Assembly (NCBI RefSeq): GCF_001908275.1
Contig: NZ_CP018620.1
Location: 1,922,001 to 1,986,000 of the forward strand
Length of the DNA stretch: 64,000 bases
Reading direction: 5' to 3'
DNA from: Paenibacillus xylanexedens
GTDB lineage: Bacteria > Bacillota > Bacilli > Paenibacillales > Paenibacillaceae
Below the pieces are notes generated by a model. That model was not told where the DNA came from. It ran no database searches and saw only the letters and a program-made list of their open reading frames with translations. Shown here piece after piece: positions 43,518 to 64,000 of this stretch (the first letter of the stretch is position 1; every line of letters starts with the position of its first letter). The translations under genes were made by a program, and so were the position numbers.

Positions 43518-43522
43518 ACGTT

Positions 43523-43708: not shown

Positions 43709-43751
43709 TATTATGCAGTCGAATTGGGAGAAGAGAGGCGGTTGATGATCG

Positions 43752-48232: not shown

Positions 48233-48532
48233 CTATGAACGTTTTTGTCAAGCCCATCACAAAAAGCTGCTTTTCCCCGAAGCCCTAAGCGCGGGAGTCC
48301 ATATGCGAGCGACGGTTGGCACGCTGCTATCCGTGGGTTGGTTACCACATGGTATGCCTTCGTCAAGGAGAGCTGTTACAAGCTAGCCACGCACGTTCAG
48401 CCCATTAAAAGCCTAGTGCAAACGAACCTCGCACATTCTCTCCTGAACCTTCCATGAACTCCCGGGCTTAGGGCTCCGGGGTTTTCCCCTTTTTCCGTTT
48501 AAACCATCCGTCTCTTCAAGATGAATAACAGA
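48231..48532 (-). ncRNA. Candidate guide (bridge/seek) RNA region of IS copy 2
   Basis: This is the non-coding 3' region of the element, equivalent to 12839-13140 in copy 1. The same 28-bp inverted pair is conserved. Only scattered substitutions separate the copies (for example in the segment next to the terminus), with no length change. The assignment rests on position and structure. Confidence 0.5.
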
Positions 48533-49651
48533 TTACTGAGCGTTCGGTAGCTCCAACGTTCGGGCGATCGCCCAAATGAACCCGGTCAGTTCCCTGGCCA
48601 CCGCGGTGACCGCGACATTTTTGTGTTTGTTTAATCCATAAACTAAACGGCGGAATTTTCGGTGCAGCCGTTCCTGGGCTTTCCATGAAATGAGCTGTAT
48701 GTCCGCAGGCAGACCTTCCAAACGGCGGGCCAAGTCCCCTTTAATCGCAGGCCGATGGCGGTAACTCCATGCCGATTCAATCAAGGTGCGACGCAATCGT
48801 CCATTTCCCGCTTTGGTGAGCGAGCCTCGTTGGGTACGGACTCCAGACGAATGCTCACGCGGAACCAGGCCCAAGTAAGCCATGAGCTGAGCAGGGGAAC
48901 GGAAACGGGCAAAGGAACCAATCTCCGCAGCAAGCGTGACGGCCGTGAGAAATCCAATGCCACGCAGAGACTGTAAAATTTGAATCAAATCGGCTTTAGA
49001 GCTGGTCGCCGCCTCTTCAATCAAGGCTTTTTCCAGTCGACCGATGCGTTGCTCGATCTCGTCCATGGCATGAAGGTACTCCGTAAACGCAATCTGCATA
49101 GGCGCATTCGGGAAGGTCAGTTGTCCAAGCCATACGCGATATTTTTTCGTCCAGCGACGTTTGATTTGTTCAGGCGGATGGATCTGGTGACGCAATAAAA
49201 ATTTGAGCACGCGTTGACGAGCCCGGTGAGCATCTTCTTTTGCCGATTCGCGTGCCCGAACCAATTCACGAAGCGCCTCATCTTCACGTGCTGGAACGTA
49301 AATCGGCGTAAGCTCGCCTGCACGGAACAGACGTGCCAGTTGCTCGGCATCCCGTCGATCGGTTTTCACGTGATCGCCGGAGCGTTTGGGGATGAGTGAA
49401 GGGGCAATGACGACACAATGGGCCCCCATGGATTCGATCCAGCGGTAGGTTTCGTATCCTGTAGGACCGGCCTCATAACAAAACGAGAGGGAGCTTGCCG
49501 GACCCAATTCTTTGATGAGTTTGCGTAAGGCAGCAGGCGCATGAGCAATGGTGCCGTAATACCGCGGCTTGTCTTGACCCTCGTCAGCAATAGCGACAGA
49601 AATTTTTTCTTTGGATACATCTAAACCAATGAATTTTGTGGTAGACTTCAT
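48533..49651 (-). CDS. IS110/IS1111-family transposase (DEDD recombinase), copy 2
   Basis: A 372-residue intact recombinase, three residues different from copy 1 (Gln, Ile and Val in place of Lys, Leu and Ile). All DEDD residues and the C-terminal Ser motif (EHSSGVRTQRGS) are present. AAAGGAG precedes the ATG at 49651. Confidence 0.95.
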   Translation of the reverse strand: MKSTTKFIGLDVSKEKISVAIADEGQDKPRYYGTIAHAPAALRKLIKELGPASSLSFCYEAGPTGYETYRWIESMGAHCVVIAPSLIPKRSGDHVKTDRRDAEQLARLFRAGELTPIYVPAREDEALRELVRARESAKEDAHRARQRVLKFLLRHQIHPPEQIKRRWTKKYRVWLGQLTFPNAPMQIAFTEYLHAMDEIEQRIGRLEKALIEEAATSSKADLIQILQSLRGIGFLTAVTLAAEIGSFARFRSPAQLMAYLGLVPREHSSGVRTQRGSLTKAGNGRLRRTLIESAWSYRHRPAIKGDLARRLEGLPADIQLISWKAQERLHRKFRRLVYGLNKHKNVAVTAVARELTGFIWAIARTLELPNAQ

Positions 49652-49792
49652 AGGGATAGCTCTCCTTTGCTGTGTAGCTCTGAAATGGTGGTCTTCTTAC
49701 TGTCCATTTTAACCTACGATGTGCAGCAATATGGAGGGCTATTTTTTGCGGTTACGTTCATCATAGCTAGAATATGACGTATAAGATACAGA

Positions 49793-49896
49793 AGAGGCTG
49801 TCCTTGGTCTGATATGCTACCCATACAGTAACAGGATTTTATTATTTTACCTGTCTACTTTATGGGGAGCATATCACCTAGGGGACAGCCTTTTTG
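49793..49896. repeat. Nested inverted repeat of about 100 bp, possible relic element or terminator
   Basis: Three nested pairings are seen: AGGCTGTCC (49795) with GGACAGCCT (49883), GATATGCT (49811) with AGCATATC (49868), and ACAGG with CCTGT in the middle. Five T follow on the + strand. It sits between IS copy 2 and the cyclomaltodextrinase gene. It may be a decayed miniature element or a bidirectional terminator. Confidence 0.55.
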
Positions 49897-49927
49897 AAGT
49901 TATTTTCCCTTGTTAGCTGTATTTATC

Positions 49928-51700
49928 TCAGGCCTCAGCTGGTTGTTTCACCTCAAGTTGCATGAGGGAGAATCCGTATGCTTCCAAATCGAGGGTCAGT
50001 TTATTTTGCCGAGCTTCCACGGTGTTTGATGTGAACAGGTTTCGCCAGACGTTACGATCTCCCAAAGGGAGTTCAAGGGTACACGGCTCATCACCTGCAT
50101 TCAGTACAAGAAGCATGCGCTCTCCCGTCTGCGAATCCAATCGTTCGATGGCAAGACAAGGGTCTCCGGCTTTTGCATATACAATCTTCAGTTCTGTGCT
50201 GCGCAGGGCAGGGTGCTCTTTACGAAGGGCAATGGTACGGGTGAAGAATTCCAGAAGCTCGCGATTCTGCTTGGTCTCATCCCATTCCATACACTTGCGG
50301 CAACCCGGATCATATCCCCCATCAAGTCCCACTTCGTCTCCATAATAGATACATGGCACACCTGGATACGTAAGCAACAACGTAACGGCAAGTTTCATCT
50401 TGCGCTCGTCTCCATCACACAAGGTCAGCAGTCTGGGTGTATCATGACTTCCGAGCAGATTGAAGGACGCTTCGGTCACAGGCTGTGAATAGGCTGCGAG
50501 CAGTTTGCCGATCTCATTGGCAAATGCGAGTCCGTCGAGCTTGCCGTGCACCGTATAGTCCAATACAGAATTGGTAAACGGATAATTCATCACGGCATCG
50601 AACTGGTCTCCCTGAAGCCACATGAGCGAATCATGCCAGATCTCACCGAGCAAATAGGCGTCAGGTTTGATGGCTTTTACTGTCTGACGGAATTCGCGCC
50701 AGAACTGATGATCTACCTCGTTGGCTACATCGAGCCTCCAGCCGTCAATGTCCATCTCCTCTATCCAGAAACGTCCTACCTCTAATAGGTATGCCTTCAC
50801 TTCAGGGTGTTCCGTATTCAGCTTCGGCATGAGCGGTTCAAAGGCAAAGGTGTCATAAGTCGGTATGCCATCCTCCACACGTGGCGGCCAGTCTTTGATA
50901 TAGAACCAGTCTGCGTAGGGGGAAGAGGCTCCATTCTTCATGACATCGACAAAAGGAGGGAACTCTCTGCCGGAATGGTTGAACACCGCATCCAGAACAA
51001 CGCGTATACCGCGCTGATGACAGGCATCCACGAAGGCCTTGAACTGTTCATTGGTTCCAAAGTGAGGATCAACCTTCATGTAATCGCCTGTATTGTATTT
51101 GTGGTTCGTCGTGGCCTCGAACAGCGGACAAAAGTAGATGGCATTGATGCCGAGCTGACTTATATGATCCAGGTGATCCAGCACACCTTGGAGATCGCCG
51201 CCGAAGAAGTTCACCGGTGTAGGTTCTCCTCCCCAGGGTTCAGCATTTTTGGGACTGATGGATGGATCACCATTGGCATAACGTTCCGGGAAAATCTGAT
51301 AAAATATAGCGTCCTTAACCCAAGCAGGCGGTTCAAAAATGTCGACCGGATTCATAAATGGAAAATCAAAGAATTCGAGCGGATGATCAGGCAGCGACTG
51401 CTCGAATCCGCGCTCCGTCATCCAGATCGATTCCTCTCCCTGAATCAGTTGGAAACCATACCGTAATCTGCGATAGGGAGGTGAAGTCTCAGCTTCCCAA
51501 TAATCGAACATTTCATCCCGGGCAAAGATGTGCATAGGGATGTGTGTGATCGTCCGATCCCAGGCATATTTGTCTCCGGTAATGGCAATCACCGCATCCA
51601 GGTCTCCGCGTTTGGACCGAAGTCGGAGGTGCATGGTCGAGCGGTCATAAGCATAAGACCAATTGAGTTTTGGGCGATGGTAAATGGCTTCAAGAATCAT
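49928..51700 (-). CDS. Cyclomaltodextrinase/neopullulanase-type glucosidase (GH13_20)
   Basis: A 590-residue protein without signal peptide, so cytoplasmic. The N-terminal CBM34-like domain (LNWSYAYDRSTMHLRLRSKR) is followed by a GH13 barrel with INAIYFCPLFEA, VLDAVFNHSG, GWRLDVANEVD (nucleophile Asp), LLGEIWHDS (acid Glu) and LLGSHDTPRLL. This is the neopullulanase/cyclomaltodextrinase subfamily, which linearises cyclodextrins and pullulan fragments. I start at ATG 51700, with AGGAGTG six bases upstream; the GTG at 51709 is part of that site. With the CGTase and ABC importer it completes a cyclodextrin route. Confidence 0.92.
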   Translation of the reverse strand: MILEAIYHRPKLNWSYAYDRSTMHLRLRSKRGDLDAVIAITGDKYAWDRTITHIPMHIFARDEMFDYWEAETSPPYRRLRYGFQLIQGEESIWMTERGFEQSLPDHPLEFFDFPFMNPVDIFEPPAWVKDAIFYQIFPERYANGDPSISPKNAEPWGGEPTPVNFFGGDLQGVLDHLDHISQLGINAIYFCPLFEATTNHKYNTGDYMKVDPHFGTNEQFKAFVDACHQRGIRVVLDAVFNHSGREFPPFVDVMKNGASSPYADWFYIKDWPPRVEDGIPTYDTFAFEPLMPKLNTEHPEVKAYLLEVGRFWIEEMDIDGWRLDVANEVDHQFWREFRQTVKAIKPDAYLLGEIWHDSLMWLQGDQFDAVMNYPFTNSVLDYTVHGKLDGLAFANEIGKLLAAYSQPVTEASFNLLGSHDTPRLLTLCDGDERKMKLAVTLLLTYPGVPCIYYGDEVGLDGGYDPGCRKCMEWDETKQNRELLEFFTRTIALRKEHPALRSTELKIVYAKAGDPCLAIERLDSQTGERMLLVLNAGDEPCTLELPLGDRNVWRNLFTSNTVEARQNKLTLDLEAYGFSLMQLEVKQPAEA

Positions 51701-51751
51701 GTGAATCACTCCTCGTCAGATGATGAAATTTCAGATCAATGCGGCCATAAA

Positions 51752-51795
51752 CGCAAAAAAGGCACAACCTCTATTGTTCACGAGGTTGTACCTTT
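51752..51795 (-). terminator. Terminator of the secreted-protein gene at 51963
   Basis: Read on the minus strand, the stem AAAGGTACAACCTC / GAGGTTGTGCCTTT (one mismatch or wobble) is followed by a T-run. It lies between the secreted-protein gene and the cyclomaltodextrinase start, so it separates the two transcripts. Confidence 0.78.
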
Positions 51796-51962
51796 CGGCA
51801 GCATAGCCTTTTGATTATAGTGCTATTATACGAACTAACTCAGCAAAAGAAAACACTTTTTTTCCTTAAATTTCAAAATATTTAAAAAGTATAAAGCGGT
51901 GAATCCATTCACACGGTGAACGCCAGAATAGTGCAATCTGACGTTATACATGTGTGGCTGTT

Positions 51963-52541
51963 TTACATTTGGTAGCCGAGTTTTTCGCCGTAGGCTTTGA
52001 TTTCAGCATGATATTGTTGAATGTTTTTAATTCCTGATGCAATCTTGTCATTACCTTGTTTAAGGAGCGTGCTGTTTACTTTCGTTTTGGCAACAGACTT
52101 TTTGAACAATTGATATCCTTCAAGCTGAGCATAGCTGCCTTTGATCAGTTTGGCATGGATTTTTTTCAGTTCAGCATTCTCCGGTTTGATCTGTTTCAGC
52201 ATGGAAACATACTTGGTGTAGTTAGGGATTGCTGTATTGTTCAGTTTCAAATAAAAGGACTTGCGATTGGAAGATGTAATGTATGTATTGCCACCCACTG
52301 CATCCATTGCTTTCTTCTCGTATACCGCTGGATCAGTCAATGCATCCAGATAGTTCAGGAAATCTTCTTCTTCGGCTGTAAGTTCCGGTTCTTCTTCTGA
52401 CGTGTCAACTTCATAGTATTCGTCTTCCGAATATGTAGTGGTTGAGTCATCCGCAGCAGCGGCATAGGACCATGCAGGTGCGAATACCCCACCGAGCAAA
52501 ACAAAACTCATAATGATTGATAGTACCCATGATTTCTTCAC
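51963..52541 (-). CDS. Secreted protein, paralogue of the product at 31534-32079
   Basis: A 192-residue protein with a GTG start at 52541 and AGGGGAA upstream. The signal peptide MKKSWVLSIIMSFVLLGG then PAWSYAAA is followed by an acidic Glu/Asp/Tyr-rich linker (about residues 33-62). The conserved core follows: RKSFYLKLNNTAIPNYTK, LKQIKPENAELKKIHA, SYAQLEGYQLFKKSVAK and LLKQGNDKI. The same core is in the paralogue. Function is unknown. It carries its own downstream terminator. Confidence 0.78.
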   Translation of the reverse strand: MKKSWVLSIIMSFVLLGGVFAPAWSYAAAADDSTTTYSEDEYYEVDTSEEEPELTAEEEDFLNYLDALTDPAVYEKKAMDAVGGNTYITSSNRKSFYLKLNNTAIPNYTKYVSMLKQIKPENAELKKIHAKLIKGSYAQLEGYQLFKKSVAKTKVNSTLLKQGNDKIASGIKNIQQYHAEIKAYGEKLGYQM

Positions 52542-52917
52542 GTGCTAAATTCCCCTATCTATAGATGTGATTTTATTCCAATGGATAATCTAACATAGTA
52601 CGACAAGAAATTACAGGAATTGTTTTACAGTAAATAACTCTCTTGAATGCATATGAATGAATAATGATCCACCAGCAAAAAGGACATGTATTAGATGAAG
52701 CTAGAAGTAAGAAGAGGTTTTTGCATGTTAAGTTAGTGAGAATAAATTTACATATATGGGTTATGTAGAGGCGTATTGTATCGATATATATTGTATTGGT
52801 TTAGTTAATATATCTTTATTTAATGTTGTTTTATGAAGTTACAGAGTTCGACATGGAGTGATAATTTTTTCCAAATAAAATGCTTGTATAATGATTTCAT
52901 CTCCATTACAATTCAAT
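52542..52917. other. AT-rich intergenic region
   Basis: About 375 very AT-rich bases between the secreted-protein gene and the Fur box at 52918. I see no gene, hairpin with T-run or repeat here. It should hold the promoter of the minus-strand gene. Confidence 0.5.
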
Positions 52918-52938
52918 TGATAATGAGTTTCAATATCA
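52918..52938. promoter_or_regulatory. Fur-box-like site before an ABC ATPase relic
   Basis: The core GATAATGAGTTTCAATATC matches the 19-bp Fur consensus at about 15 positions. It lies 28 bases before the truncated ATPase fragment, so it is probably the leftover control region of a lost iron-uptake gene. Confidence 0.65.
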
Positions 52939-52965
52939 TTTATAGGGAAAAGGGCAAACGGGTTA

Positions 52966-53133
52966 CATCACATTGTGGCTGTTCACAACAAGTCCATTTA
53001 CGCAGAAGGTAAACCGGAAGATCTCGTTACACTGGACATGGTCCGGAAGGTTTTCCAGATGGAGTGTGAGATTGCGGTCGGTCCACTGTCCGGCACACCA
53101 ACCATTATCCTGCATGGAAGGCAAGGAAGCTGA
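52966..53133 (+). pseudogene. C-terminal fragment of a siderophore ABC transporter ATPase
   Basis: The frame reads HHIVAVHNKSIYAEGKPEDL, then VTLDMVRKVFQMECEIAVGP, LSGTPTIILHGRQGS and TGA at 53131. This is the C-terminal end of FecE/FepC-type siderophore ATPases; Walker A, signature and Walker B are all missing. A 27-codon frame directly follows (53134-53217) and may be debris of the next gene. The region 53218-53500 shows nothing else. It is probably the scar of a deletion in an older iron-uptake operon just upstream of the siderophore biosynthesis genes. Confidence 0.8.
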
Positions 53134-53500
53134 ATGGAGAACAGCGTTACACTCAGCTGGCCTGAGGATCTGAAGATGCAGATTTTGGCTGCGGAATATC
53201 GACTGACGAAGATCTAAAGGATTACTGTCCGACCTGTCTCAATTTAAACCATTAAGTTTTTCGCTACGTGTTCCATGATTATTTGAATAATGATTCGACG
53301 AATGATTCAAGCTATATCCCTATTTCTAACCTCCTCGTCAACGCTTCTGCGTTCACTGCAAATAACAGGAACAGGCAAACTCTTGGTTTCATCTGATCCA
53401 GAGATTGCCGCGTTTGTTGTACCTGTTATTCGATGTAACAAAACCACGCCTACATAAACTCATGTTAAAATCAATCTTATTTTTCCTTAAAAGTTTATTA

Positions 53501-53561
53501 TTGACAACAAAGAACAAATTGCCATAAAATAGATTTTATATGATATTGATAATCATTATCA
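53501..53561 (+). promoter_or_regulatory. Promoter with Fur box, NIS siderophore operon
   Basis: The -35 TTGACA (53501-53506) and -10 TAAAAT (53525-53530) have an 18-base spacer. The Fur box core GATATTGATAATCATTATC (53542-53560) differs from the 19-bp consensus at one position. This is the strongest Fur box in the window. Transcription would then run through MITE-like copy 6 before the first gene. Confidence 0.9.
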
Positions 53562-53600
53562 ATATAAAATTACAATAAAAATTGATGAAAGTATGAGCAA

Positions 53601-53788
53601 TATAAGTTGAATTCAAATTTCACACGTTAACGGAGGGGGCAGAACAGATCTGAAGAAGCGTAGCGTGCGCCTTTATCACCGGATTTCCCCTTTGTATAAG
53701 GGATTCAAAAAATCTGGGGATAACAGCGATCGGAAGATGGTTCTGACCGCGCAGTGATTTCGTGTAAAAACTCTATTCAACTTATATA
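53601..53788 (+). repeat. Fold-back MITE-like element, copy 6 (in the siderophore operon leader)
   Basis: It runs from TATAAGTTGAATTCAAA to TATTCAACTTATATA with all main blocks: CACACGTTAACGGAG, GGCAGAACAG, GAAGAAGCGTAGCGTGCGCC, TTTATCACCGGATTTCCCC, AAAAAATCTGGGGATAACAG and CGATCGGAAGATGGTTCTGA. It lies between the Fur-controlled promoter and the first gene, 37 bases before its GTG, so it must be part of the mRNA leader. Confidence 0.85.
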
Positions 53789-53825
53789 GGAGCGAGTACT
53801 TTCATTCAATCGAGGAGGATTTTCA

Positions 53826-54851
53826 GTGTTTCCGAAAGGGATTCATAATCTGCAAAACCGACTCATTATAAGCAAAGCGAGAGAAATGGGCATCACCTGT
53901 GAGCCACTTCTTGAGGGATGCGAAGATTTTCTGAAGCTGTCCGTAGGGGACCAAGAGATCATCATTAACAAAACCAGATCTCATCGTCTGCCGTTAATCG
54001 CTGGACTGCTCGCGAAGAACAAGCAGGCATGTAATATGTTGCTGCATGAACAGGGAATGCCTGTACCGTCATTTATCGTGATCCCGGAGATGGGAAGCGA
54101 AGCAGTAGCTTTTCTAAATAGATACGGCTCTATTGTAGTGAAACCACTGGATGCGAGCAGCAGCATGGGCGTGACGCTGGATGTGCGTACTGAAGAAGAA
54201 CTGGAGGCAGCCATTCATCTTGCGAGTGTCCACGGCAGCAGCATTATGTTACAGCAATATGTGACCGGAATCGATTACAGAGTGCTGATCATTAACGGTG
54301 AAGTGGTGGCTGTGAATGAGTATCGGCCTGTCTATGTCGAGGGAGACGGAACTTCAACCGTTCGGGCGTTAATCGAGCAGTTGAATCAGGAACGAATCGA
54401 GATGACACCCATTGGCGAGTATGAAGCTTTTCCCCAGATTGATGCAGAAGCTGAACGTCTGTTAGAGGTATTACGTGCACAAGGGACAACACTGGATGAA
54501 GTTCCTGCCGCCGGAAAAGAAATCGAGTTATATGATCTCCGTAACTCAGCCGCCGGAAAAATCAGTGAATTCTACAAGGATTGTACCGAAATCATTCATC
54601 CCGATAATGCGCGAATGATCATTCAAGCGGCCAAAACTCTTCAGATCGATGTAGCAGGGGTCGATGTTCGTTGTTGTGATATCCGCACTCCGATCTCCAG
54701 AGAACAGGGAGGCATCCTGGAAGTGAACGCTTTGCCGGATCTGACACACCACGTCTTCCCCCATGGTGGGACAACTCGTGATGTGGTTCGGTTATATCTG
54801 GAATACCTGTGCCAGGAACAACTTAAATATAAGACGTATAACAACGTATAG
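53826..54851 (+). CDS. ATP-grasp ligase in the siderophore operon
   Basis: A 341-residue ATP-grasp enzyme similar to the C-terminal part of cyanophycin synthetase or to glutathione-type ligases. The ATP-binding segments are GSIVVKPLDASSSMGVTLDV and SIMLQQYVTGIDYRVLIING. The Mg2+ site region is GVDVRCCDI with GGILEVNALPDLTHH. The GTG start at 53826 has AGGAGG 8 bases upstream. It would form an amide or peptide bond with an amino acid; such an enzyme is not part of the S. aureus sbn set, so it may add an extra building block to the siderophore or make a precursor. The substrate is unknown. Confidence 0.8.
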   Translation: MFPKGIHNLQNRLIISKAREMGITCEPLLEGCEDFLKLSVGDQEIIINKTRSHRLPLIAGLLAKNKQACNMLLHEQGMPVPSFIVIPEMGSEAVAFLNRYGSIVVKPLDASSSMGVTLDVRTEEELEAAIHLASVHGSSIMLQQYVTGIDYRVLIINGEVVAVNEYRPVYVEGDGTSTVRALIEQLNQERIEMTPIGEYEAFPQIDAEAERLLEVLRAQGTTLDEVPAAGKEIELYDLRNSAAGKISEFYKDCTEIIHPDNARMIIQAAKTLQIDVAGVDVRCCDIRTPISREQGGILEVNALPDLTHHVFPHGGTTRDVVRLYLEYLCQEQLKYKTYNNV

Positions 54852-55007
54852 ATGACAATATATAACGGATAACAGATGACGAATACCATCATTTAATTCG
54901 GACTTTACCATGATTTTGAACCAATACCATGTCATATGCAAAATGAAGAACAAGAATCACAGGCAGCAGGTTCAGCCTGAATCGATTATAAGGAGCGTTA
55001 GAAGGCT

Positions 55008-56363
55008 ATGTCAGTAGAGGTGCAGACGGAATATCTGAAGATGCAAAATGAGAAGGAATCCAATGCAAGATCGTACCCCAGACATTTCCCGCTTGTCATT
55101 AACAAGGCCCATGGGGTGAAGGTTACCGATACGGAAGGCCGCGTATTCTACGATTGCCTGGCTGGTGCAGGAACATTGGCGCTGGGGCATAACCATGACA
55201 CGGTGGTCAACGCCATTCGCGATGTTCTGGATCAGCAGATTCCGCTTCATACACTGGATCTGGCAACACCGCTGAAGCTTTCATATATGCAAGAACTGTT
55301 TTCCATTCTCCCGGCCGAGATGCGAGACAAAGCCAAAATCCAGTTCTGTGGTCCAACGGGGGCCGATGCAGTTGAAGCAGCCATTAAGCTGGTCAAACAT
55401 GCTACAGGTGGCAAGTCTATTCTTGCCTTTCAGGGAGGTTATCACGGTTCGACCCAAGCGACAATGTCGATGAGTGGCAACCTGAGCAAGAAACAACATC
55501 TGCAAAGCCTGCTGCCCGATGTACATTTCCTGCCGTTTCCTTATGAATACCGCTGCCCATTTGGTGTTGGTGAGGGCATGACGGCCCAATTAAGCGCACA
55601 GTATATCGAGAACTTGCTCGATGATTGCGAGAGCGGTATTGCCGCACCGTGTGGGGTCATTGTGGAGACGGTGCAGGGTGAAGGTGGAGCCATTCCGGCA
55701 GATATCGAATGGCTGAGGGAGCTGCGGCGAATCACAGCAGAGCGAAGTATTCCCCTCATCATCGACGAAGTGCAGACAGGCATTGGACGGACAGGCCGAA
55801 TGTTTTCGTTTGAACATGCCGGAATTGTACCCGATGTAATCATCTGCTCCAAAGCAGTTGGCGGAAGTCTGCCGATGTCTGTCGTCATCTACCAAGGAGA
55901 ACTGGATCAATGGCAACCTGGTGCACACACAGGTACGTTCCGTGGCAATCAGCTGGCCATGGCAGCGGGACTTGCGACACTTCGTTATATTCGGGAACAG
56001 GATGTTCTACACAACGTACATCTGCGCAGTGAGCAGTTCATGAATCAACTGAATGCATTGAAAGAGCGATATGCAGAGATTGGTGACGTGCGAGGCAGAG
56101 GATTGATGATTGGCGTTGAAGTGGTTGATCCAACAGGACGCAAGGATCGTCTGGGACATTATCTGCCTAATGGTGCGCTGGCTGAGTCTATTCAGCGTGA
56201 ATGTTTCAAGAATGGATTAATTGTAGAACTGGGCGGGCGTCATTCAGCTGTTGTTCGTTTTCTGCCGCCGCTGAATATTACGGAGCAAGAATCGGGTGCA
56301 ATCCTTGTGATCTTTGAGAAATCGGTAGCTGAAGCGATTGCCTTAGCAACAGCCGCATGCTGA
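55008..56363 (+). CDS. dat: Diaminobutyrate-2-oxoglutarate aminotransferase
   Basis: A 451-residue class III PLP-dependent aminotransferase. Segments KIQFCGPTGADAVEAAIKLV, FQGGYHGSTQATMSMSG and IIDEVQTGIGRTGRMFSFEH, and the PLP Lys in IICSKAVGGSLPMSVV, match the RhbA/EctB/Dat group. These enzymes make L-2,4-diaminobutyrate from aspartate semialdehyde and glutamate. Here it likely supplies the diamine for the NIS synthetases, in the place that SbnA/SbnB (diaminopropionate) have in staphyloferrin B clusters. AAGGAG precedes the ATG. Its end overlaps the exporter gene by seven bases. Confidence 0.88.
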   Translation: MSVEVQTEYLKMQNEKESNARSYPRHFPLVINKAHGVKVTDTEGRVFYDCLAGAGTLALGHNHDTVVNAIRDVLDQQIPLHTLDLATPLKLSYMQELFSILPAEMRDKAKIQFCGPTGADAVEAAIKLVKHATGGKSILAFQGGYHGSTQATMSMSGNLSKKQHLQSLLPDVHFLPFPYEYRCPFGVGEGMTAQLSAQYIENLLDDCESGIAAPCGVIVETVQGEGGAIPADIEWLRELRRITAERSIPLIIDEVQTGIGRTGRMFSFEHAGIVPDVIICSKAVGGSLPMSVVIYQGELDQWQPGAHTGTFRGNQLAMAAGLATLRYIREQDVLHNVHLRSEQFMNQLNALKERYAEIGDVRGRGLMIGVEVVDPTGRKDRLGHYLPNGALAESIQRECFKNGLIVELGGRHSAVVRFLPPLNITEQESGAILVIFEKSVAEAIALATAAC

Positions 56364-57790
56364 AGCTTTCCCTGATGAAGAGGCATGCAGTATTACTCGC
56401 GATTCTGATCGGTGCCTTTTCGCTGGTACTGACCAACAGTGCATTTAACCTGCTGCTGCCTTATTTTGTGCAATATTATCAGATCTCTACGACAGCAGGC
56501 GGGTGGATTATCGCGCTGTACATGCTGGCTATGACGTTAACGATGCCGCTGGCTTCCCTGATTGTGGACCGACTAGGGCGTAAGCAGACGTATATGTTGG
56601 GGATCAGTATCTATGGACTGTTCTCGGTGGCAGGTGCATTGTTTTATCACTCCATCGAAGTACTGTTGCTGGTCCGTTTTATGCATGGCGTTGCCGCGGG
56701 GCTGATGATTCCGTTATCACTTGTGCTGCTGTTTGATGTATACGGACCGGAGGTAAGAGGGCGAATTACCGGAGCGTGGGGCTTGCTGCTTATGCTGGCT
56801 CCGGCTGCTGGGCCAACGCTGGGTGGCTTCATCATACAGTATGGACGGCTTGAAATGTTGTTCTGGCTCAATGTGCCACTGGCTATATTCTCGTTGATTG
56901 GGTGTGGTCGAGTCATTCAGACCTATATCCCTGCTCGCAGGAAAAAATGGCATCCATCCAGTGTCATGATGCTGATCTGCGCGGTAGGTGCCCTTAGTCT
57001 GGGGGTACAGTTGTACGCAAGTCCTGTCGTGGCAGTATGGGTACCTTGGATGCTAATTGCGCTCGGTGTGGTGTTGCTCATTCGTTTTGTCCAGACCGAG
57101 AACGGTCGGAAGGAACCACTCATCCGGTACCAGTTACTGCGACGTAATGCCGTCTTTCCGCTGACCGTATGGATCTCGACGATTCAGGATTGTGTCATGT
57201 TTGGTGTGATCTTTGCATTGCCACTATTGTTCCAGGACGTCTTCCACCTGTCACCGGCCCTGTCCGGTGTGTTGTTCATTCCCTTGTCGATCTGTACAAG
57301 TCTGTTTATGTGGATTGGCGGCAGCTTGCTGGATCGCGGTCGGTCCATGCATTTTATCGCATGGGGGACGTTGCTGGTGTCGATATCGATCTTATCGTTT
57401 GCGGTTCTGCCCATGGGAGCGTCAATATGGATCATCGGGATGCTCATGGCGTGTCGGGGAATTGGCGTTGGTCTGTCAGGCATGAGTATCTCTGCAATTG
57501 GTCTGCAAGCATTACCGGACGAAGATATGCACGAAGGGTCGGTGTTATCAACCACGATTGAGCGGCTGGCTTCTTCGTTTGCGGTGATGGGCTTGACCCT
57601 GTATTACGATATGCGTTGGCAATGGCTTGCCGGGGCAGGAACCTCCATGGAGATGGCAAAATGGGGAGCACTCAAAGAGATCTGTATCGGACTTGGCTGC
57701 GCCATACTGCTTACACTTCCCCTGGTCTTACTTATAACCCGAAAGAAGGTTGGCATCATTGTTCGAGATGGAAAACAAGCTCCGGTCTGA
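56357..57790 (+). CDS. MFS exporter (DHA2/EmrB-like), probable siderophore exporter
   Basis: A 477-residue transporter with about 14 membrane helices. The DHA2 segment GGWIIALYMLAMTLTMPLAS, the motif A loop DRLGRKQTYMLG and the motif C-like GLLLMLAPAAGPTLGGFI are typical of drug and siderophore exporters. It occupies the position of SbnD in the staphyloferrin B operon, so export of the finished siderophore is inferred. It overlaps the genes on both sides. Confidence 0.85.
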   Translation: MLKLSLMKRHAVLLAILIGAFSLVLTNSAFNLLLPYFVQYYQISTTAGGWIIALYMLAMTLTMPLASLIVDRLGRKQTYMLGISIYGLFSVAGALFYHSIEVLLLVRFMHGVAAGLMIPLSLVLLFDVYGPEVRGRITGAWGLLLMLAPAAGPTLGGFIIQYGRLEMLFWLNVPLAIFSLIGCGRVIQTYIPARRKKWHPSSVMMLICAVGALSLGVQLYASPVVAVWVPWMLIALGVVLLIRFVQTENGRKEPLIRYQLLRRNAVFPLTVWISTIQDCVMFGVIFALPLLFQDVFHLSPALSGVLFIPLSICTSLFMWIGGSLLDRGRSMHFIAWGTLLVSISILSFAVLPMGASIWIIGMLMACRGIGVGLSGMSISAIGLQALPDEDMHEGSVLSTTIERLASSFAVMGLTLYYDMRWQWLAGAGTSMEMAKWGALKEICIGLGCAILLTLPLVLLITRKKVGIIVRDGKQAPV

Positions 57791-59555
57791 AGCTGAGCAG
57801 CAGGCGCATGAACATTCGTGCAAACTGCTGCTGAACTGTTACATCCGTGAACTTGCGCTAGAGAAGAAAAGCGATATTTGGATCAATCCAAATACGCTGA
57901 CGTACACTGTTGCTTTTCAAGCTAGTAGGGTGAAGGTGACAGGACGCTTGTCTTATTACTCTGCCATAGGGGAGCATGAATACCTCAGCATGGAATCTGG
58001 CGGGGAAACGGTGCATTATGGCGACCTGGTTCGCTGGATCACATCTGAGCTAAGCGGGAATGGGGAACAGGGAGCGAGTTCGGATCAACATGGAATGAAG
58101 AAAAGTGTGATGGAGATGAAGCGTTCACTTGAGCTGGAGAATGTACATCCATGGGGTGAGAATACGAATCGCGTAGAGCTGGCGTATGCCAGAGATTTTG
58201 CACAAAAGGTAGATAACAGTGTCGGTAACCTTACGTTGTATATCGAACAAGCAGCCGGTCTCGACATCCACGACTATCGGACATCGGAACAGTCACTGTT
58301 GTATGGTCATCCGTTCCATCCGTTTCCGAAGAACTCCAAAGGCTTCAGCGAGCAAGATGTTCAGAACTACAGCCCGGAGTTACGGACATCGTTTCAACTC
58401 TGTTATATCGCCGTGAGGCAGGATGTCTACGTGCAGGAATGGGTGGATAACGAGGCGGCAATGGATTTGCATGACCTCCTGCGGAGCCATGTGGAGCCTA
58501 TTTTAAAAGAAAAGAGTGAAATGTATGGGCTGCTGCCTGTCCATCCATGGCAATACGCGTACATATCACGGTTGACCGAGATACAGTCCTATTTTCGAGA
58601 TGAAAAATTAATCCTGCTTGGCAGTGCGGGGCCAACCGTCTATCCAACTTCTTCGGTCCGTACAGTTTATGTTCCTGAATGGAACTGCAATATCAAGCTG
58701 TCACTGAACATGCAGATCACGAACATGATTCGCACCAACAGTGCTGAGCAGATGCGCAGAACACTGGATGCCTCCAAGTACGTCAGGCAGCATGACTGCT
58801 TCGGTGCTGAACCGAACACACATATTGCGTATGAGACAGGTGTAGCGACATGTGCCTTTGATAATGAAGAGTTAACCAGTCTATTCACGATAGCTTATCG
58901 GCCCATTGAGTTCGACCCTGCGAATACGTATGTCTTATCCAGTCTGGTTGAGGCACCGCTTCCTGGGATGCGGTCGCGACTGATGACGATGCTGGGTGGT
59001 GGACGTGACATTGCCGAGCGTTGGCTGGATCGATATCTGAAGTGTTCTCTGCTGCCGATTGTACGGGCGGCGGGTGAGAAAGGCATTCATTTTGAAGCTC
59101 ATTTGCAGAATACCCTTGTGACCTTAAAGGATGGGTTGCCTGTGGATTTTATCGTCCGCGATCTGGAAGGGGTCAGTGTGGATGAGGAACTTATAAGTGA
59201 GCAGGATCGTGCAACGTCCGATTTATTATTTTATTCGCGAGAGAAAGCCTGGGCGCGGACATCGTACTATTTTATCGTCAATCACCTTGGGTCTCTGATT
59301 CATGCCATGGCGCGAGATGTGAACCTCCCGGAGGAGCATTTCTGGAAGCAAGTACGTGAGGTGCTTGTGGAGGAACTGGAACGAACGGGCAATGCATATG
59401 TGCAACATCTGCTGACGACGGATGCATTTCTGGCCAAACAAAATTTGGTGAGTTGTCTAAGGGGTATCAGCCAAACCCCGGCCTACGTGCCGGTGAGCAA
59501 TGTAATGAAACGAATAGGGAGTGAAGTGCGTGGGAGTCGTGGGATACAGGGCTGA
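57759..59555 (+). CDS. sbnE: NIS siderophore synthetase, IucA/IucC family, SbnE-like
   Basis: An NIS synthetase of about 598 residues that adenylates a carboxylate (citrate) and couples it to an amine. Typical motifs are EQSLLYGHPFHPFPKNSKGF, SFQLCYIAVRQDV, LLPVHPWQYAYI, SVRTVYVPEWNCNIKLSL and GIHFEAHLQNTLV. These resemble SbnE, which adds the first diamino acid in staphyloferrin B. The start is uncertain: AAGAAGG at 57744-57749 favours the TTG at 57759; TTG 57750 is too close and ATG 57768 is somewhat far. It overlaps the exporter gene by about 30 bases and the next gene by about 25. Confidence 0.85.
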   Translation: MFEMENKLRSEAEQQAHEHSCKLLLNCYIRELALEKKSDIWINPNTLTYTVAFQASRVKVTGRLSYYSAIGEHEYLSMESGGETVHYGDLVRWITSELSGNGEQGASSDQHGMKKSVMEMKRSLELENVHPWGENTNRVELAYARDFAQKVDNSVGNLTLYIEQAAGLDIHDYRTSEQSLLYGHPFHPFPKNSKGFSEQDVQNYSPELRTSFQLCYIAVRQDVYVQEWVDNEAAMDLHDLLRSHVEPILKEKSEMYGLLPVHPWQYAYISRLTEIQSYFRDEKLILLGSAGPTVYPTSSVRTVYVPEWNCNIKLSLNMQITNMIRTNSAEQMRRTLDASKYVRQHDCFGAEPNTHIAYETGVATCAFDNEELTSLFTIAYRPIEFDPANTYVLSSLVEAPLPGMRSRLMTMLGGGRDIAERWLDRYLKCSLLPIVRAAGEKGIHFEAHLQNTLVTLKDGLPVDFIVRDLEGVSVDEELISEQDRATSDLLFYSREKAWARTSYYFIVNHLGSLIHAMARDVNLPEEHFWKQVREVLVEELERTGNAYVQHLLTTDAFLAKQNLVSCLRGISQTPAYVPVSNVMKRIGSEVRGSRGIQG

Positions 59556-61509
59556 AGCAGGCGGCAGGACAGAAGCAGTCTACGTGGGTGTACAGGAACG
59601 GATCATGCGTCAGACGTTGGAGGCGATGTGGTTCGAAGGCATTCTGGACAGTCATGTAAGTGGGAGCGAATGGCGAACCAGCGGCCTTACATCTTCCGGC
59701 GATTCTGTGGCGTACACGTGTGAAGCGGAGCGGAAGTTTTCGTTCGGCCGGGTGAAGGTGAAGAAGGGTTCGATTCAAAGGGATGGCGTACTCTGCACCG
59801 ATCTGGATCTGTTTTTGGAGGAAATTGTGCTGAACGCTTTGAAGGGTGCAAATGTGACGGCTTTTATCCAGGAACTGCTCGAAACGATGGCAAAGGACAG
59901 CCAGTGCCAAGCTATGTTGCCCTTGAACATTCCGAATGAAGATCGACATTATGATGCGCTCGAAAGTCATATGACTGATGGTCATCTGTACCACCCGAGT
60001 TATAAGTCGAGGCTGGGATTTTCTTTGAAAGACAATCTGGCCTATGGCCCTGAATTTAACTCGAAGGTTTCATTAGTCTGGGTTGCTGTGAAAAAAGATT
60101 TGGCTCAGATCGCTGTATCCGCAGGGTATAGCTCTGAAGAACTGATAGGGCAACATCTGACCGCAGAGGATATGCAGCGATTTCAACAGATCCTGCAACA
60201 ACAAGGTTTTACGGACACGGGTGAGAACGTCAACGCATATGCGGCGAGTGCAGATCAGCTTGAGAGCAGTGCCGAGGTTGGTGAAATAACAGCTGTTCAA
60301 GATAGCTTAATAGGCTCTAGCGTTGGCAGCAAAGACAGCAAGGTAGATGGGGAAATAGGTTCTGAAGCGGATGATCGCTATGTGTTCATTCCAGTTCATC
60401 CATGGCAATGGGAGCATCAGTTGGAATCGGTATATGCCCGTCAGTTGATGGATAGAGACATCGTGTATCTTGGTCCATCGTCTTCGCCCTATCGTGCGCA
60501 GCAGTCGATCCGTTCGCTGTCGAATCGGGTGAACCCGGAAGCCCCTTACATCAAGCTGGCCCTTAGCATCACCAACACATCGAGCACGCGTATTCTGGCA
60601 CAGCATACGACCCAGAACGCGCCGCTGATCAGTGATTGGTTGGAAGAACTTGTTCGTGAAGATGAGCTGTTGCAGCAGGCGCAGTTTGCCATTTTGAAAG
60701 AAATCATGGGACTGTCTTTCCGTTATGAAGAGTTGCCTGTAACTCAGTATGGACGAGCCTACGGCACACTTGGTGCGATCTGGCGGGAGAATGTATCGGT
60801 TCATCTAAAGCAAGGTGAGACCGCGTGGCCTCTGAATGCACTGATGTTGGTACAGCCGGATGGTGTTCCATTTATCCAGGATGCTGTAGAACGACATGGT
60901 GTGGAAAAGTGGAGCGAGGCCCTTGTACGCACAGTTACACTGCCGATTATACATCTGCTCTATGCACACGGGATTGCGCTGGAATCTCATGCCCAGAATA
61001 TCATTTTGGTCCTGGAAGACGATCTGCCGAAACGAATCATTATCAAGGATCTGCATGATGGTGTTCGTTATGTACCGGATCAACTGTTGCACCCGGAACG
61101 GGCACCGAAGCTGAACCCAGAACCGGAAACCCATCGCAAGTTCAATCGGTATTCCTTCATCTATGCCGGCGATGTGTCGGAAGTCCGTGACTATACGTAT
61201 GATGCTTTCTTTTTTATCTGCATGACGGATATTGCGCTGGCTTTGGAGAAGTTTGGTCTGTCGGAGGAAGCGTTCTGGCAGCTGTGCGCAGGTGTAATTG
61301 TGGATTATCAGCGAGAGCACCCGGAGTATACGGAACGGTTTGTGGCATTTGACCTTTTTGCCGAAGATGCACTGATCGAAGAGATGACCAAGCGCCGTCT
61401 GTATGGGGATGGAGAGTTATATTTCCGCAAAGCGAGCAATCCGCTCAAGATATCAAAGGATGCACTTGAATCAAAGAGAACACCCGAATTAAAGGGAATC
61501 GTCGAATGA
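59530..61509 (+). CDS. sbnF: NIS siderophore synthetase, IucA/IucC family, SbnF-like
   Basis: A synthetase of about 659 residues most like SbnF. Motifs are HLYHPSYKSRLGFSLKDNLA, FIPVHPWQWEHQ, SNRVNPEAPYIKLALSITNT, GTLGAIWRENVSVHL, LESHAQNIILV and IIKDLHDGVRY. It should attach a second amine to the citryl intermediate. I prefer GTG 59530, with GGGAG eight bases before it; GTG 59521 overlaps that site. An insertion of about 45 Ser/Gly/Glu-rich residues (encoded near 60230-60370) precedes the VHPWQ motif and is absent from my recollection of SbnF. It is coupled to the next gene by ATGA. Confidence 0.87.
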   Translation: MGVVGYRAEAGGRTEAVYVGVQERIMRQTLEAMWFEGILDSHVSGSEWRTSGLTSSGDSVAYTCEAERKFSFGRVKVKKGSIQRDGVLCTDLDLFLEEIVLNALKGANVTAFIQELLETMAKDSQCQAMLPLNIPNEDRHYDALESHMTDGHLYHPSYKSRLGFSLKDNLAYGPEFNSKVSLVWVAVKKDLAQIAVSAGYSSEELIGQHLTAEDMQRFQQILQQQGFTDTGENVNAYAASADQLESSAEVGEITAVQDSLIGSSVGSKDSKVDGEIGSEADDRYVFIPVHPWQWEHQLESVYARQLMDRDIVYLGPSSSPYRAQQSIRSLSNRVNPEAPYIKLALSITNTSSTRILAQHTTQNAPLISDWLEELVREDELLQQAQFAILKEIMGLSFRYEELPVTQYGRAYGTLGAIWRENVSVHLKQGETAWPLNALMLVQPDGVPFIQDAVERHGVEKWSEALVRTVTLPIIHLLYAHGIALESHAQNIILVLEDDLPKRIIIKDLHDGVRYVPDQLLHPERAPKLNPEPETHRKFNRYSFIYAGDVSEVRDYTYDAFFFICMTDIALALEKFGLSEEAFWQLCAGVIVDYQREHPEYTERFVAFDLFAEDALIEEMTKRRLYGDGELYFRKASNPLKISKDALESKRTPELKGIVE

Positions 61510-62282
61510 GGATTAACACGCTGAAGGAAAAAATTGCACGCAAACAGCCTGTTTATGGCCTTTTTGTATCGATCCCGCACCCGGTCATTATCGAGATGAT
61601 CGGACATGCGGAATATGATTTTGTCATTATTGACCTGGAACATGCCGCAACATCGATGGAATCGGTGGAAGAGTTGATCAGGGCGGCGGAACTCGTGGGC
61701 CTAACCCCGTTGGTTCGAATTTCTAAGGTGGAGCGAGCGGAGATTCTGAAAGTGCTGGACTGTGGCGCACAAGGTATCGTCATTCCACATGTCGAGCAAC
61801 TGGAGCAGGTGGAGGAAGCGGTTCGTCACGCCTACTATCATCCGGTTGGCATGCGTAGCTTGAATAGCGGTCGTCCCGGTGTATTTGGGAAATATCCGCT
61901 CACTGAATACATTGGGGAAGCGAACGAACAAGTGATGGTTGTACCCATGATCGAAAGTGTGGAGGGCGTTCGGCAAAGTGCACAGATTCTGTCTCACCCT
62001 CAGGTGATTTTTGTATTGGAAGGGGCAGCAGATCTGTCGCAATCCCTCGGTGTGCCATGGCAGACAGAGCACCCGGATGTGAGACGTGCGCTGGATGAAT
62101 TGCACGCTACTGCCCAGCAGTGCGAAGTACCTTATGCAACGGTCACCAGAGGTGTGGAGGATATGTCTCTCTGGGCTGAGCGGGGAGTACATATATACGT
62201 GCTTGGTGATGATCGGAATACGGCGTTTCGGGCATTTACCCAAAAACGGAATGACTACAGGAATGCGGGTGGGCAGATATGA
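61506..62282 (+). CDS. sbnG: HpcH/HpaI-family aldolase, SbnG-like citrate synthase
   Basis: A 258-residue class II aldolase-type enzyme. Key segments are HPVIIEMIGHAEYDFVIIDL with EHA, PLVRISKVERAEILKVLDCG, AQGIVIPHVEQLEQ and the late acidic region FVLEGAADLSQSLG. In S. aureus, SbnG makes citrate from oxaloacetate and acetyl-CoA for staphyloferrin B when the TCA cycle is low. The same role is inferred here from the operon. The ATG overlaps the preceding stop (ATGA). Confidence 0.88.
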   Translation: MRINTLKEKIARKQPVYGLFVSIPHPVIIEMIGHAEYDFVIIDLEHAATSMESVEELIRAAELVGLTPLVRISKVERAEILKVLDCGAQGIVIPHVEQLEQVEEAVRHAYYHPVGMRSLNSGRPGVFGKYPLTEYIGEANEQVMVVPMIESVEGVRQSAQILSHPQVIFVLEGAADLSQSLGVPWQTEHPDVRRALDELHATAQQCEVPYATVTRGVEDMSLWAERGVHIYVLGDDRNTAFRAFTQKRNDYRNAGGQI

Positions 62283-63628
62283 AACCTAGTGTATGGCAGG
62301 CGATTGATGAACTACAACGCGGAAAGGAAGACCCGGTATGTGCGTATGTCTACGATCTGGCCGGCATTCAGGAACAGGTAGGTCAGATGCTGGGCAGCAT
62401 GCCCGGAAACACAGAATTGTTTTACGCCATTAAGGCGAATCCAGATCCGCGAATCATTGAGGCGTTGCTACCATTGGTGAAGGGCTTTGAAGTGGCTTCA
62501 AGTGGAGAGTTGCTCAAGGTTAGAGCGGTAAGTCGCGAGGTTCCGATTCTGTTTGGAGGTCCGGGTAAGAAGGAGAGCGAACTGAGATTAGCGATGGAAC
62601 ATGGCGTGAGTTACATTCATGTGGAAAGTTTGCTGGAGCTGCGGCGTATCATTGCGATTGCGAAAGAGAGAGCGATGGAGCAGGAGCAGGTGCAGGGGAG
62701 CAGGCAGAAGCAAGAATGGGAGCAAAAACCGGGACATGAGCCGAAACACAAACAACAACAGAAGCAAGCGCAGGAGGTGCGCATTCTGCTCCGAATCAAT
62801 CTGCGAAGCAGTACGTTACCCCGGACGAAGATTGTTATGGGCGGCGGACCGAGTCCTTTTGGTATCGATGAAGAGGCAGTGGAAGAAGCCGTCGAACTCA
62901 TTCGTGTGGAAGGCGCGGGTGTAGTTCGGTTAAGCGGGTTCCACTTTCATTCCTTGTCTAACAATATGGATGCCAGGCTGCACGCCGAGATGATCGAACT
63001 GTATTTGCAAAAGGTGGAGCAATGGCAGCAACAGTATGATCTTCCTGTGGAAGTGGTGAATGCAGGAGGTGGGTTCGGTGTTACGTATGATGGCAGCCCC
63101 GGATTCGACTGGCCCTTGTTCACTTCCCTGCTGGAGCAAAGTGAAGCCAGAGAGCGCCTTGCTTCACGCGGAGGTCAGCTGTATTTTGAAACGGGTCGAC
63201 TACTGGTGGCAGACCATGGGTACTACGTAGCAGAAGTTACGGATATCAAAACCTCTCATGATCAGTATTTTGCCGTGTTAAGAGGAGGTACGCACCACAA
63301 TCGTCTGCCTGCTTCATGGGGGCATAACCACCCGTTCCAGATTATGGAGACGGACCGTTGGAAGCATTCATTTGCCCGTCCAGAGGTAAGAGATCGTCGA
63401 GTCCATATCGTAGGTGAGCTATGCACACCTAAGGATCGCATGCATTCTGATGCGGAGGTAGCACTGCTGCGCGTGGGAGATATTGTTTTGTTTGAAAAGT
63501 CTGGGGCTTATTGCTGGACCATCTCGCATCATGATTTTCTGGGGCATCCGCACCCGGCATTCCATTATCTAACGGAGGACAATAATCATGTCAACACTGA
63601 TGAAACGTTCCAGTCTGCAAGCCGCTGA
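62279..63628 (+). CDS. sbnH: PLP-dependent type III decarboxylase, SbnH-like
   Basis: A 449-residue fold-III decarboxylase (DapDC/ornithine type). The PLP Lys is in ELFYAIKANPDPRI, and the glycine-rich phosphate site (VVNAGGGFGVTYDG), GQLYFETGRLLVADHG and a late Cys-containing GELCTPKDRMHSDAE are present. SbnH decarboxylates a citryl-diamino-acid intermediate. If the amine here is diaminobutyrate, the product would carry a diaminopropane unit. An unusual Gln/Lys/Glu-rich insertion of about 40 residues (near nt 62660-62780) interrupts the barrel. It overlaps the SbnG-like gene by four bases and the next gene by 41. Confidence 0.88.
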   Translation: MKPSVWQAIDELQRGKEDPVCAYVYDLAGIQEQVGQMLGSMPGNTELFYAIKANPDPRIIEALLPLVKGFEVASSGELLKVRAVSREVPILFGGPGKKESELRLAMEHGVSYIHVESLLELRRIIAIAKERAMEQEQVQGSRQKQEWEQKPGHEPKHKQQQKQAQEVRILLRINLRSSTLPRTKIVMGGGPSPFGIDEEAVEEAVELIRVEGAGVVRLSGFHFHSLSNNMDARLHAEMIELYLQKVEQWQQQYDLPVEVVNAGGGFGVTYDGSPGFDWPLFTSLLEQSEARERLASRGGQLYFETGRLLVADHGYYVAEVTDIKTSHDQYFAVLRGGTHHNRLPASWGHNHPFQIMETDRWKHSFARPEVRDRRVHIVGELCTPKDRMHSDAEVALLRVGDIVLFEKSGAYCWTISHHDFLGHPHPAFHYLTEDNNHVNTDETFQSASR

Positions 63629-64000
63629 ACGCCGGATTATGGCGGATCTGATGAATTCATTCTTGTCGGAGCAATTACTCCCACTGGAGGATCACCCATT
63701 CATTGATTTTACCGCATCACCTGCACCGTTCCGTCGATTGTACAAGGGATATGACAGCGAAGAGCATAATCATAATGTAGCTTCTCGCTATAGATTGCAC
63801 ACTCAAGGTATACTCTGTCTGGTTGAAACAGGAGTAAGACAGGGGACTCAGTGGGTTCAGGGTTCACCGATCTACGAGGAGAAAACTGATGGAAGCTGGG
63901 TTCTCCTTGATACTCCGGCAGAAGTTGGACGTGCGGTGTTACAGAGGGCTTTGTCGGATAAGGCCTATGCGCAGCCTGGGGTGGCGGAATTCCTGGTTAG
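63588..64000 (+). CDS. Third NIS siderophore synthetase (IucA/IucC family), 5' part
   Basis: 137 codons are visible before the right edge. The ATG has CGGAGG ten bases upstream and overlaps the decarboxylase gene. The N-terminus (QAAERRIMADLMNSFLSEQL, PLEDHPFIDFTA, SPIYEEKTDGSWVLLDTPAE) resembles the start of IucA/IucC proteins. By its place after the SbnG/SbnH-like genes it may be the third synthetase (SbnC role). The diagnostic HPxHP-type motifs lie beyond the window, so the assignment is moderate. Confidence 0.65.
   Translation, partial: MSTLMKRSSLQAAERRIMADLMNSFLSEQLLPLEDHPFIDFTASPAPFRRLYKGYDSEEHNHNVASRYRLHTQGILCLVETGVRQGTQWVQGSPIYEEKTDGSWVLLDTPAEVGRAVLQRALSDKAYAQPGVAEFLV

Follow-up and report, generated by a model that had tools for sequence, protein, structure and literature searches.

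Which siderophore is made by a gene cluster that carries the gene set of one well-known citrate siderophore but places, at the first step of assembly, a synthetase that resembles that of another? The question is raised by an eight-gene operon of Paenibacillus xylanexedens, located at the right end of a 64,000-nucleotide stretch of DNA (positions 1,922,001 to 1,986,000 of contig NZ_CP018620.1, RefSeq assembly GCF_001908275.1; hereafter the ‘window’, whose numbering is used throughout). Its genes, all on the plus strand, encode in order an ATP-grasp ligase (ATPG), a diaminobutyrate aminotransferase (DAT), a major facilitator superfamily (MFS) exporter, two nonribosomal peptide synthetase-independent siderophore (NIS) synthetases (NIS1 and NIS2), an SbnG-like enzyme, an SbnH-like decarboxylase and a third synthetase (NIS3). 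It is likely, in our judgement, that the operon makes a citrate siderophore by the logic of staphyloferrin B, with L-2,4-diaminobutyrate (DABA) replacing diaminopropionate (Dap) and with a possible extension by ATPG. The gene set is that of achromobactin, the first-step logic that of staphyloferrin B and the building block probably DABA. The product is probably an undescribed siderophore; no published description of the cluster was found in a literature search limited to the open-licence PMC library.

Families were assigned with NCBIfam and Pfam models (for the first seven genes), with PF04183 (for the three NIS genes) and, for six of the eight, with a sequence search of the PDB. The gene list of the initial annotation, which had been drawn from the letters and their open reading frames (ORFs), is borne out in all eight entries, in their order and in their strand. 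Its ‘third synthetase’ is SbnC-like, matches PF04183 and finds as its best PDB entry 7cbb (E 1.5e-79), which we take to be SbnC. DAT scores 725 bits, above the NF005393 cut-off of 671, and NIS2 scores 479 bits against the SbnF model, under the NCBIfam ‘exception’ cut-off of 900. The SbnG-like protein is best matched by 4tv5 (E 5e-60), and the decarboxylase by 6knh (E 6e-101) as well as by 6knk, an entry named SbnH in an excerpt of PMC7857480. Compared with the staphyloferrin B locus of Staphylococcus aureus (sbnA-I), the operon contains counterparts of SbnC, E, F, G and H. It also shares the order exporter-E-F-G-H, as judged against the sbn gene order that we assume for S. aureus. It differs in lacking SbnA and SbnB, with a DABA aminotransferase in their place, in carrying the SbnC counterpart at its end, in the EmrB type of its exporter, in the added ATP-grasp gene and in the acceptor-site residues of NIS1.

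Loci around NIS1 (the best 80 of 575) were divided into 49 close ones, with at least 44% identity to NIS1, and 31 others. Among the latter, 13 carry counterparts of SbnA and SbnB (one representative of each exceeds its NCBIfam cut-off), 13 carry DAT, and four from halomonads have neither, with EctB present in their genomes; one, on a short contig (L122), was left unlabelled. Two trees, one of 51 and one of 37 sequences, place NIS1 in the SbnE-type part, the references there being counterparts in SbnA/SbnB-bearing clusters rather than S. aureus SbnE. The PvsD-position enzyme from a vibrioferrin-like cluster lies on a separate side, together with two enzymes of the AcsD type (SH-aLRT support for the split of 97 in the 51-row tree and 100 in the 37-row tree). 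PvsD, we presume, is like AcsD an enzyme that esterifies serine. The vibrioferrin steps are assigned otherwise in an excerpt of a review (PMC5577590), which describes them as untested. Long branches were flagged in the larger tree, those of the PvsB-position and Pseudonocardia rows among them; these two rows and 12 that were close to others were dropped to leave the 37.

What the first synthetase accepts can be approached through the residues around its acceptor site. AcsD of Dickeya aligns without gaps, over residues 2-593, to its ortholog in Sodalis, and AcsD numbering is therefore usable here. Four residues of the enzyme, E442, R501, K563 and R305, are described as important in an excerpt of the AcsD study (PMC3323832). 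All four are conserved in 84 of the 84 NIS1-family sequences tallied, and the acceptor can therefore be expected to bear both amino and carboxylate groups. According to the same excerpt, AcsD esterifies serine and uses L-DABA at a level barely above background (PMC3323832); a first enzyme that uses DABA should therefore have a different pocket.

The residues flanking E442 and R501 differ between DABA-supplied and Dap-supplied clusters. In the first set of sequences, R501 is followed by Thr in all 67 DABA-type rows, by Leu or Phe in all 14 Dap-type rows, and by Ile in the two AcsD-type rows and the PvsD-position row; E442 is preceded by Phe in 67 of 67 DABA-type rows (and in the PvsD-position row) and by Leu or Met in 13 of 14 Dap-type rows. 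Twenty further loci of the genus yielded 16 that could be counted (three were identical to earlier rows and one had no usable ORF), four of them 87-94% identical to first-set rows and twelve 40-43%. Agreement was complete: the six DAT-type loci have Thr and Phe, and the ten SbnA/SbnB-type loci have Leu and Leu. When the sets are pooled, Thr follows R501 in 73 of 73 DABA-supplied sequences, versus Leu or Phe in 24 of 24 Dap-supplied ones. The unlabelled L122 has Phe at this position, a residue possible in Dap-type rows. Ten genomes of the genus (L146-L155) were seen to carry a separate NIS cluster of the SbnA/SbnB (Dap) type, in which the SbnE-like gene is divergently transcribed.

The genome-wide supply of diamino acids points in the same direction. 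A profile search of the whole 7.1 Mb genome gave zero matches to SbnB and none over the cut-off of 350 to SbnA; the best SbnA-model match reaches 252 bits, and such sub-cut-off matches are taken to be cysteine synthases. Dap supplied from elsewhere in the genome was rejected on these grounds. Together with the NIS1 tree and the acceptor-site residues, this result supports the original suggestion that the logic is of the staphyloferrin B type and that DABA is substituted for Dap. That suggestion had named a neighbouring IucD/IucB-type pair as what would speak against it, and none lies beside the operon. PF13434 (the IucD-type hydroxylase) has five weak matches in the genome (best 40 bits), which exceed Pfam's low cut-off of 21.3 as happens in 12 of 14 control genomes, and PF13523 (the IucB-type acetyltransferase) has seven, the best of which (88 bits) is some 740 kb off. 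A hydroxamate route, as in schizokinen, rhizobactin 1021 or aerobactin, was rejected because neither enzyme adjoins the operon.

A number of points weigh against the use of DABA at both arms by staphyloferrin B logic. The best PDB match of NIS1 is IucA, with AcsD behind it. The Dap-type references come from Bacillota and one Pseudonocardia, not from S. aureus itself, and the ‘DABA-type’ label reflects neighbouring genes or, for nine genomes, EctB elsewhere. EctB, which also makes DABA, exceeds its cut-off in nine of nine checked genomes with a DAT-less cluster versus five of 12 with DAT, and those nine hold no other match to the DAT model as strong as that of DAT; the pattern speaks for the use of DABA, from an alternative source, but it is a correlation among kin, confounded by halophily as well as kinship. 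In the 37-row tree, the DABA-type NIS1 sequences lie together on one side, and the residue differences may for that reason be inherited marks and not determinants of substrate. DABA might also be used in the NIS2 step alone, with serine or imported Dap as the acceptor of NIS1. Finally, the function given to ATPG is taken from its fold only.

The remaining enzymes give a mixed picture. A scan of all alignment columns found sites that split DABA- from Dap-type sequences (10 in NIS1, seven in NIS2, four in the decarboxylase and five in NIS3), all of them chosen post hoc and with kinship not removed, which again counts against relying on them. Achromobactin-type rows served for comparison; their reference is a Sodalis plasmid cluster, which presumably makes achromobactin and was classed by its gene content. 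At the NIS1 sites these rows are mostly Dap-like (for example, Phe at 314 and Arg at 569). For NIS2, two such rows have the window's residue or one in the DABA range at four of the seven sites (402, 494, 567 and 635), are Dap-like at 619 and differ from the window at 534 and 636. The NIS3 residues fall inside the DABA-type range at five of five sites, and at 185 the one decarboxylase row agrees with the Dap type. The pattern as a whole fits DABA use by the window operon, since an achromobactin-type pathway should take up DABA in the NIS2 step and serine in the first.

On this basis a pathway can be proposed. DAT would provide DABA, and the SbnG-like enzyme would provide citrate, the role that we assume from SbnG. 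NIS1 would join the two as an amide, the SbnH-like enzyme would decarboxylate citryl-DABA to citryl-1,3-diaminopropane, NIS2 would place a second DABA on the other arm, NIS3 would add 2-oxoglutarate, and the MFS protein would export the product. The core so formed, a ‘homo-staphyloferrin B’, would have the composition C18H28N4O11 and a calculated [M+H]+ of 477.183; ATPG would probably form one more amide bond, for instance to an amino acid on a scaffold carboxylate. A diamine one carbon longer and a diaminopropane had first been offered as alternatives. The two would belong to a single pathway, because decarboxylation of citryl-DABA yields the diaminopropane half. A more specific and decidedly tentative proposal is that Paenibacillaceae and some Bacillaceae make an undescribed siderophore family, a ‘homo-staphyloferrin B’ (one arm with 1,3-diaminopropane, the other with DABA) to which ATPG attaches an amino acid, and that a two-residue rule (Thr following the R501 equivalent and Phe preceding that of E442) separates first synthetases that use DABA from those that use Dap.

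The features of the operon are collected in Table 1. From promoter to hairpin the unit spans about 12 kb, with ATPG as its first gene. The promoter is one of the two best among 19 promoter-like matches in the stretch, a number that shows no excess over the shuffle mean of 20.3, so that its weight lies in score and position only. The Fur box, called by a 7-1-7 pattern that we take to be the appropriate one, is the sole site without mismatch across the 64-kb window; at up to three mismatches, eight sites are observed versus 4.5 expected, and six of 100 shuffles reach eight. The operon would, by these sites, be repressed by iron. A second Fur-box-like site, with one mismatch, lies near the opposite end of the window (4362-4376). 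The initial annotation ended the operon at 64000. The genes that it listed are there, but 64000 is merely the window edge: NIS3 runs to 65435 (L005:89-1936), and the operon continues for 1.4 kb past the edge. Terminator-like sites number eight in the stretch versus 11.4 in shuffles, and the hairpin is backed by its position and length. The frames as called overlap from DAT onward; the true start of NIS1 is probably 57768, as judged from homologues of 595 amino acids, and the gap between ATPG and DAT measures 156 bases in the window, 12 in L066 and 67 in L052. Loci that bear the names of Paenibacillus, Cohnella and several Bacillaceae genera show the same gene order, and the arrangement is therefore not one of chance.

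Table 1. Features of the operon and its borders, in window coordinates
Feature	Position	Strand	Remarks
Remnant of an ATP-binding cassette (ABC) importer ATPase gene	52966..53162	+	C-terminal end (residues 208-273), in two frames
Sigma-A-like promoter	53501..53530	+	TTGACA-18-TAAAAT, 11/12 match
Fur box	53547..53561	+	TGATAATCATTATCA, fits the 7-1-7 pattern without mismatch
ATPG	53826..54851	+	Stand-alone ATP-grasp ligase, relative of the cyanophycin synthetase ATP-grasp domain
DAT	55008..56363	+	Diaminobutyrate--2-oxoglutarate aminotransferase, AcsF/Dat type
MFS exporter	56357..57790	+	DHA2/EmrB-like, counterpart of the exporter of the achromobactin-type cluster
NIS1	57756..59555	+	SbnE-type synthetase, putatively forming the first citrate-DABA amide; frame used
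NIS2	59521..61509	+	SbnF-type synthetase, putatively adding the second DABA; start uncertain; variable low-complexity insert
SbnG-like enzyme	61506..62282	+	HpcH/HpaI fold, in SbnG/AcsB position
SbnH-like decarboxylase	62279..63628	+	Pyridoxal phosphate-dependent; putative citryl-diamino-acid decarboxylase
NIS3	63588..64000	+	SbnC-type synthetase, putatively for the 2-oxoglutarate step; continues to 65435 beyond the window
Terminator-like hairpin	65441-65471		13 pairs, six bases after the end of NIS3

Two of the enzymes carry inserts. The low-complexity insert of NIS2 (residues ~215-285) has 71 amino acids in the window, 79-82 in L049-L051, 85-88 in L061 and L065, 39 in L052 and 18-25 in the remaining 43 of the 50 loci compared. 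In the decarboxylase, an insert rich in Q, K and E (residues ~125-168) interrupts an otherwise conserved enzyme, and the length of the gene varies between 1278 and 1461 bases across L049, L050 and L052-L056. Beyond the hairpin, the next gene is beta-galactosidase-like (named from a reading of its ORF), and a collagen-like protein of Gly-X-Y repeats is encoded further downstream of the operon (L005:9849-10982).

Among the genes that set the operon apart from known systems is ATPG. Its predicted structure (mean pLDDT 92.8) is closest in fold to cyanophycin synthetase 7wae (TM score 0.80 by query length, 32% identity), which is also its closest sequence family. ATPG differs in being a stand-alone protein of 341 amino acids linked to siderophore genes, its ten best matching chains having 585-877 residues. 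K66, K106, E299 and N301 are invariant in 28 aligned sequences; the lysines and the E-x-N metal site presumably have the roles of such residues in ATP-grasp enzymes. Fold and conserved residues together fit an amide ligase. Just as the cyanophycin enzyme adds aspartate, ATPG may, as the simplest guess, attach an amino acid to one of the scaffold carboxylates. In vibrioferrin (pvsABCDE), for which a vibrioferrin-like plasmid cluster was compared, an ATP-grasp gene likewise leads an operon of NIS, MFS and decarboxylase genes. That cluster differs in having two NIS enzymes, no DAT and no SbnG-like gene, and PvsA was rejected as a model for ATPG: the clusters are alike but the proteins are not (E 6.4 for the PvsA-position protein, which also has other best NCBIfam models).

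ATPG could instead act outside siderophore assembly, by making a precursor or by modifying the importer side or a stored form, or could be a neighbour of the other genes with no part in the siderophore; we regard this as unlikely, while giving it more weight than any other alternative. The association with the cluster argues against it. ATPG stands first after the Fur-box promoter, its ATP-grasp residues are kept as described, and it occurs in 32 of 75 genomes of the genus, within ~5 kb of NIS1 in 32 of 32 and accompanied by DAT in 31. Among 116 ATPG-like proteins, those above ~40% identity are named Paenibacillus, Cohnella or Paenibacillaceae where an organism is given; one further such entry, labelled Bacillus anthracis, was not used. 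In favour of a role outside assembly are the lack of any known substrate for ATPG, its absence from 10 of the 49 close loci (39 carry it, in the sample of the best 80 of 575), and its covariation with an RraA-like gene whose place in achromobactin loci is beyond the importer genes. Within the same sample, that gene directly follows NIS3 in nine of the ten ATPG-less close loci (L070-L073, L085, L093, L094, L096 and L102) and in none of the 39 with ATPG. Neither gene is found within the stretch examined in L092, L101, L127 and five DAT-bearing loci (L104, L105, L106, L109 and L110). A tree built from the three synthetases in concatenation requires two changes for ATPG and three for the RraA-like gene; in two independent pairs, the latter goes the opposite way in 1.8 of 2 on average, and the sign test is not significant. 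The alternation is suggestive, and was rejected as statistical evidence on account of having two independent pairs only and of the exceptions among the loci.

The next alternative, that the operon makes achromobactin itself and that NIS1 is a diverged AcsD, appears improbable to us. In achromobactin synthesis, O-citryl-serine is decarboxylated to the ethanolamine derivative, and DABA and two 2-oxoglutarates are then added. Achromobactin (acsA-F and yhcA, of Dickeya and Pseudomonas syringae) was the first candidate by gene set, and was demoted as the product after the NIS1 tree. The resemblance had been missed by the initial annotation, which had looked to a characterised cluster with the same genes as a possible refutation: the same seven families are present, the AcsF-type aminotransferase included, with counterparts of AcsA/AcsC, AcsB, AcsE and YhcA. 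The P. syringae genes are listed as acsF, acsD, acsE, yhcA, acsC, acsB and acsA in an excerpt of PMC3329529. All seven genes that follow ATPG have reciprocal best matches in the Sodalis cluster, in a comparison of 16 proteins; E442, R501 and K563 are conserved in NIS1; and several NIS2 and NIS3 residues are held in common with achromobactin-type rows. The idea of a DABA-based staphyloferrin B logic survives the match, because a different lineage holds the AcsD position. NIS1 has 23% identity to the Sodalis AcsD ortholog, versus 32-51% for the other six genes (DAT 50-51%, the SbnG-like enzyme 49%, NIS2 38%, NIS3 35-37%, the decarboxylase 36-37% and the MFS protein 32-34%). Forcing the NIS1 clade and AcsD together in the 37-row set costs 81 log-likelihood units and is rejected by the approximately unbiased (AU) test (p-AU 1.7e-68), the constrained group having been defined after the first tree was inspected. 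The residues beside the acceptor site of NIS1 are unlike those of AcsD, the former of the serine ester, and the gene order is another. Achromobactin-type loci lack the added ATP-grasp gene, and those of Sodalis and Thalassospira end in the RraA-like gene, whose family (PF03737) has zero matches in the whole window genome. Psyr_2595, printed as ‘Menaquinone biosynthesis’, is presumably the same RraA-like gene.

A locus decaying in the window strain, with no product at all, is a still fainter prospect. The window strain keeps the whole biosynthetic operon and has lost the linked importer. Upstream of the operon, sister genomes carry ABC importer genes for a binding protein, permeases and an ATPase, and the binding-protein gene of L052 is matched (E <=1e-80) in 27 of the 32 ATPG-bearing genomes of the genus (a set that includes the window genome), within ~7 kb of ATPG in 27 of 27. 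The window strain is one of the five where it is missing: neither the binding protein nor the permease has a match in window positions 40000-53826, and the ten best matches to the L052 binding protein in its genome have 27-32% identity. What is left is the frameshifted ATPase remnant; its first residue is 208 in the window, in L049 and also in L050, from P. xylanexedens DSM 21292, so that one shared deletion is likely. Two relatives in the genus have damaged copies of the operon: L132 (G026) is without DAT and most of the exporter gene, and L133 (G005) has several genes with broken frames, where decay and sequencing error are not distinguished. Against decay, the eight biosynthetic frames of the window are open and 79-98% identical over nearly full length to those of L049-L057 (except in L051, where the decarboxylase is split), and promoter match, Fur box and hairpin are all in place.

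Ordinary staphyloferrin B, made with Dap from outside the operon, is the least credible alternative, for all that SbnC-H homologues are present and that the genus also contains a Dap variant (SbnA/SbnB-type loci make up 10 of the extra 20): SbnB is unmatched in the genome and SbnA has no match over its cut-off, DAT leads the biosynthetic block after ATPG, and the acceptor-site residues of NIS1 are not Dap-type.

If the DABA-based pathway proposed here is correct, two well-known citrate/2-oxoglutarate siderophores would be linked by one swap in diamine supply together with changes at the acceptor site, and a simple sequence rule would be available for reading such clusters. The choice between diamino acids is called ‘an intriguing biological question’ in an excerpt of a study of staphyloferrin B (PMC3179956). 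Because Dap and DABA versions coexist in one genus, that choice could be tested in these clusters, and ATPG would represent a new tailoring step for NIS siderophores.

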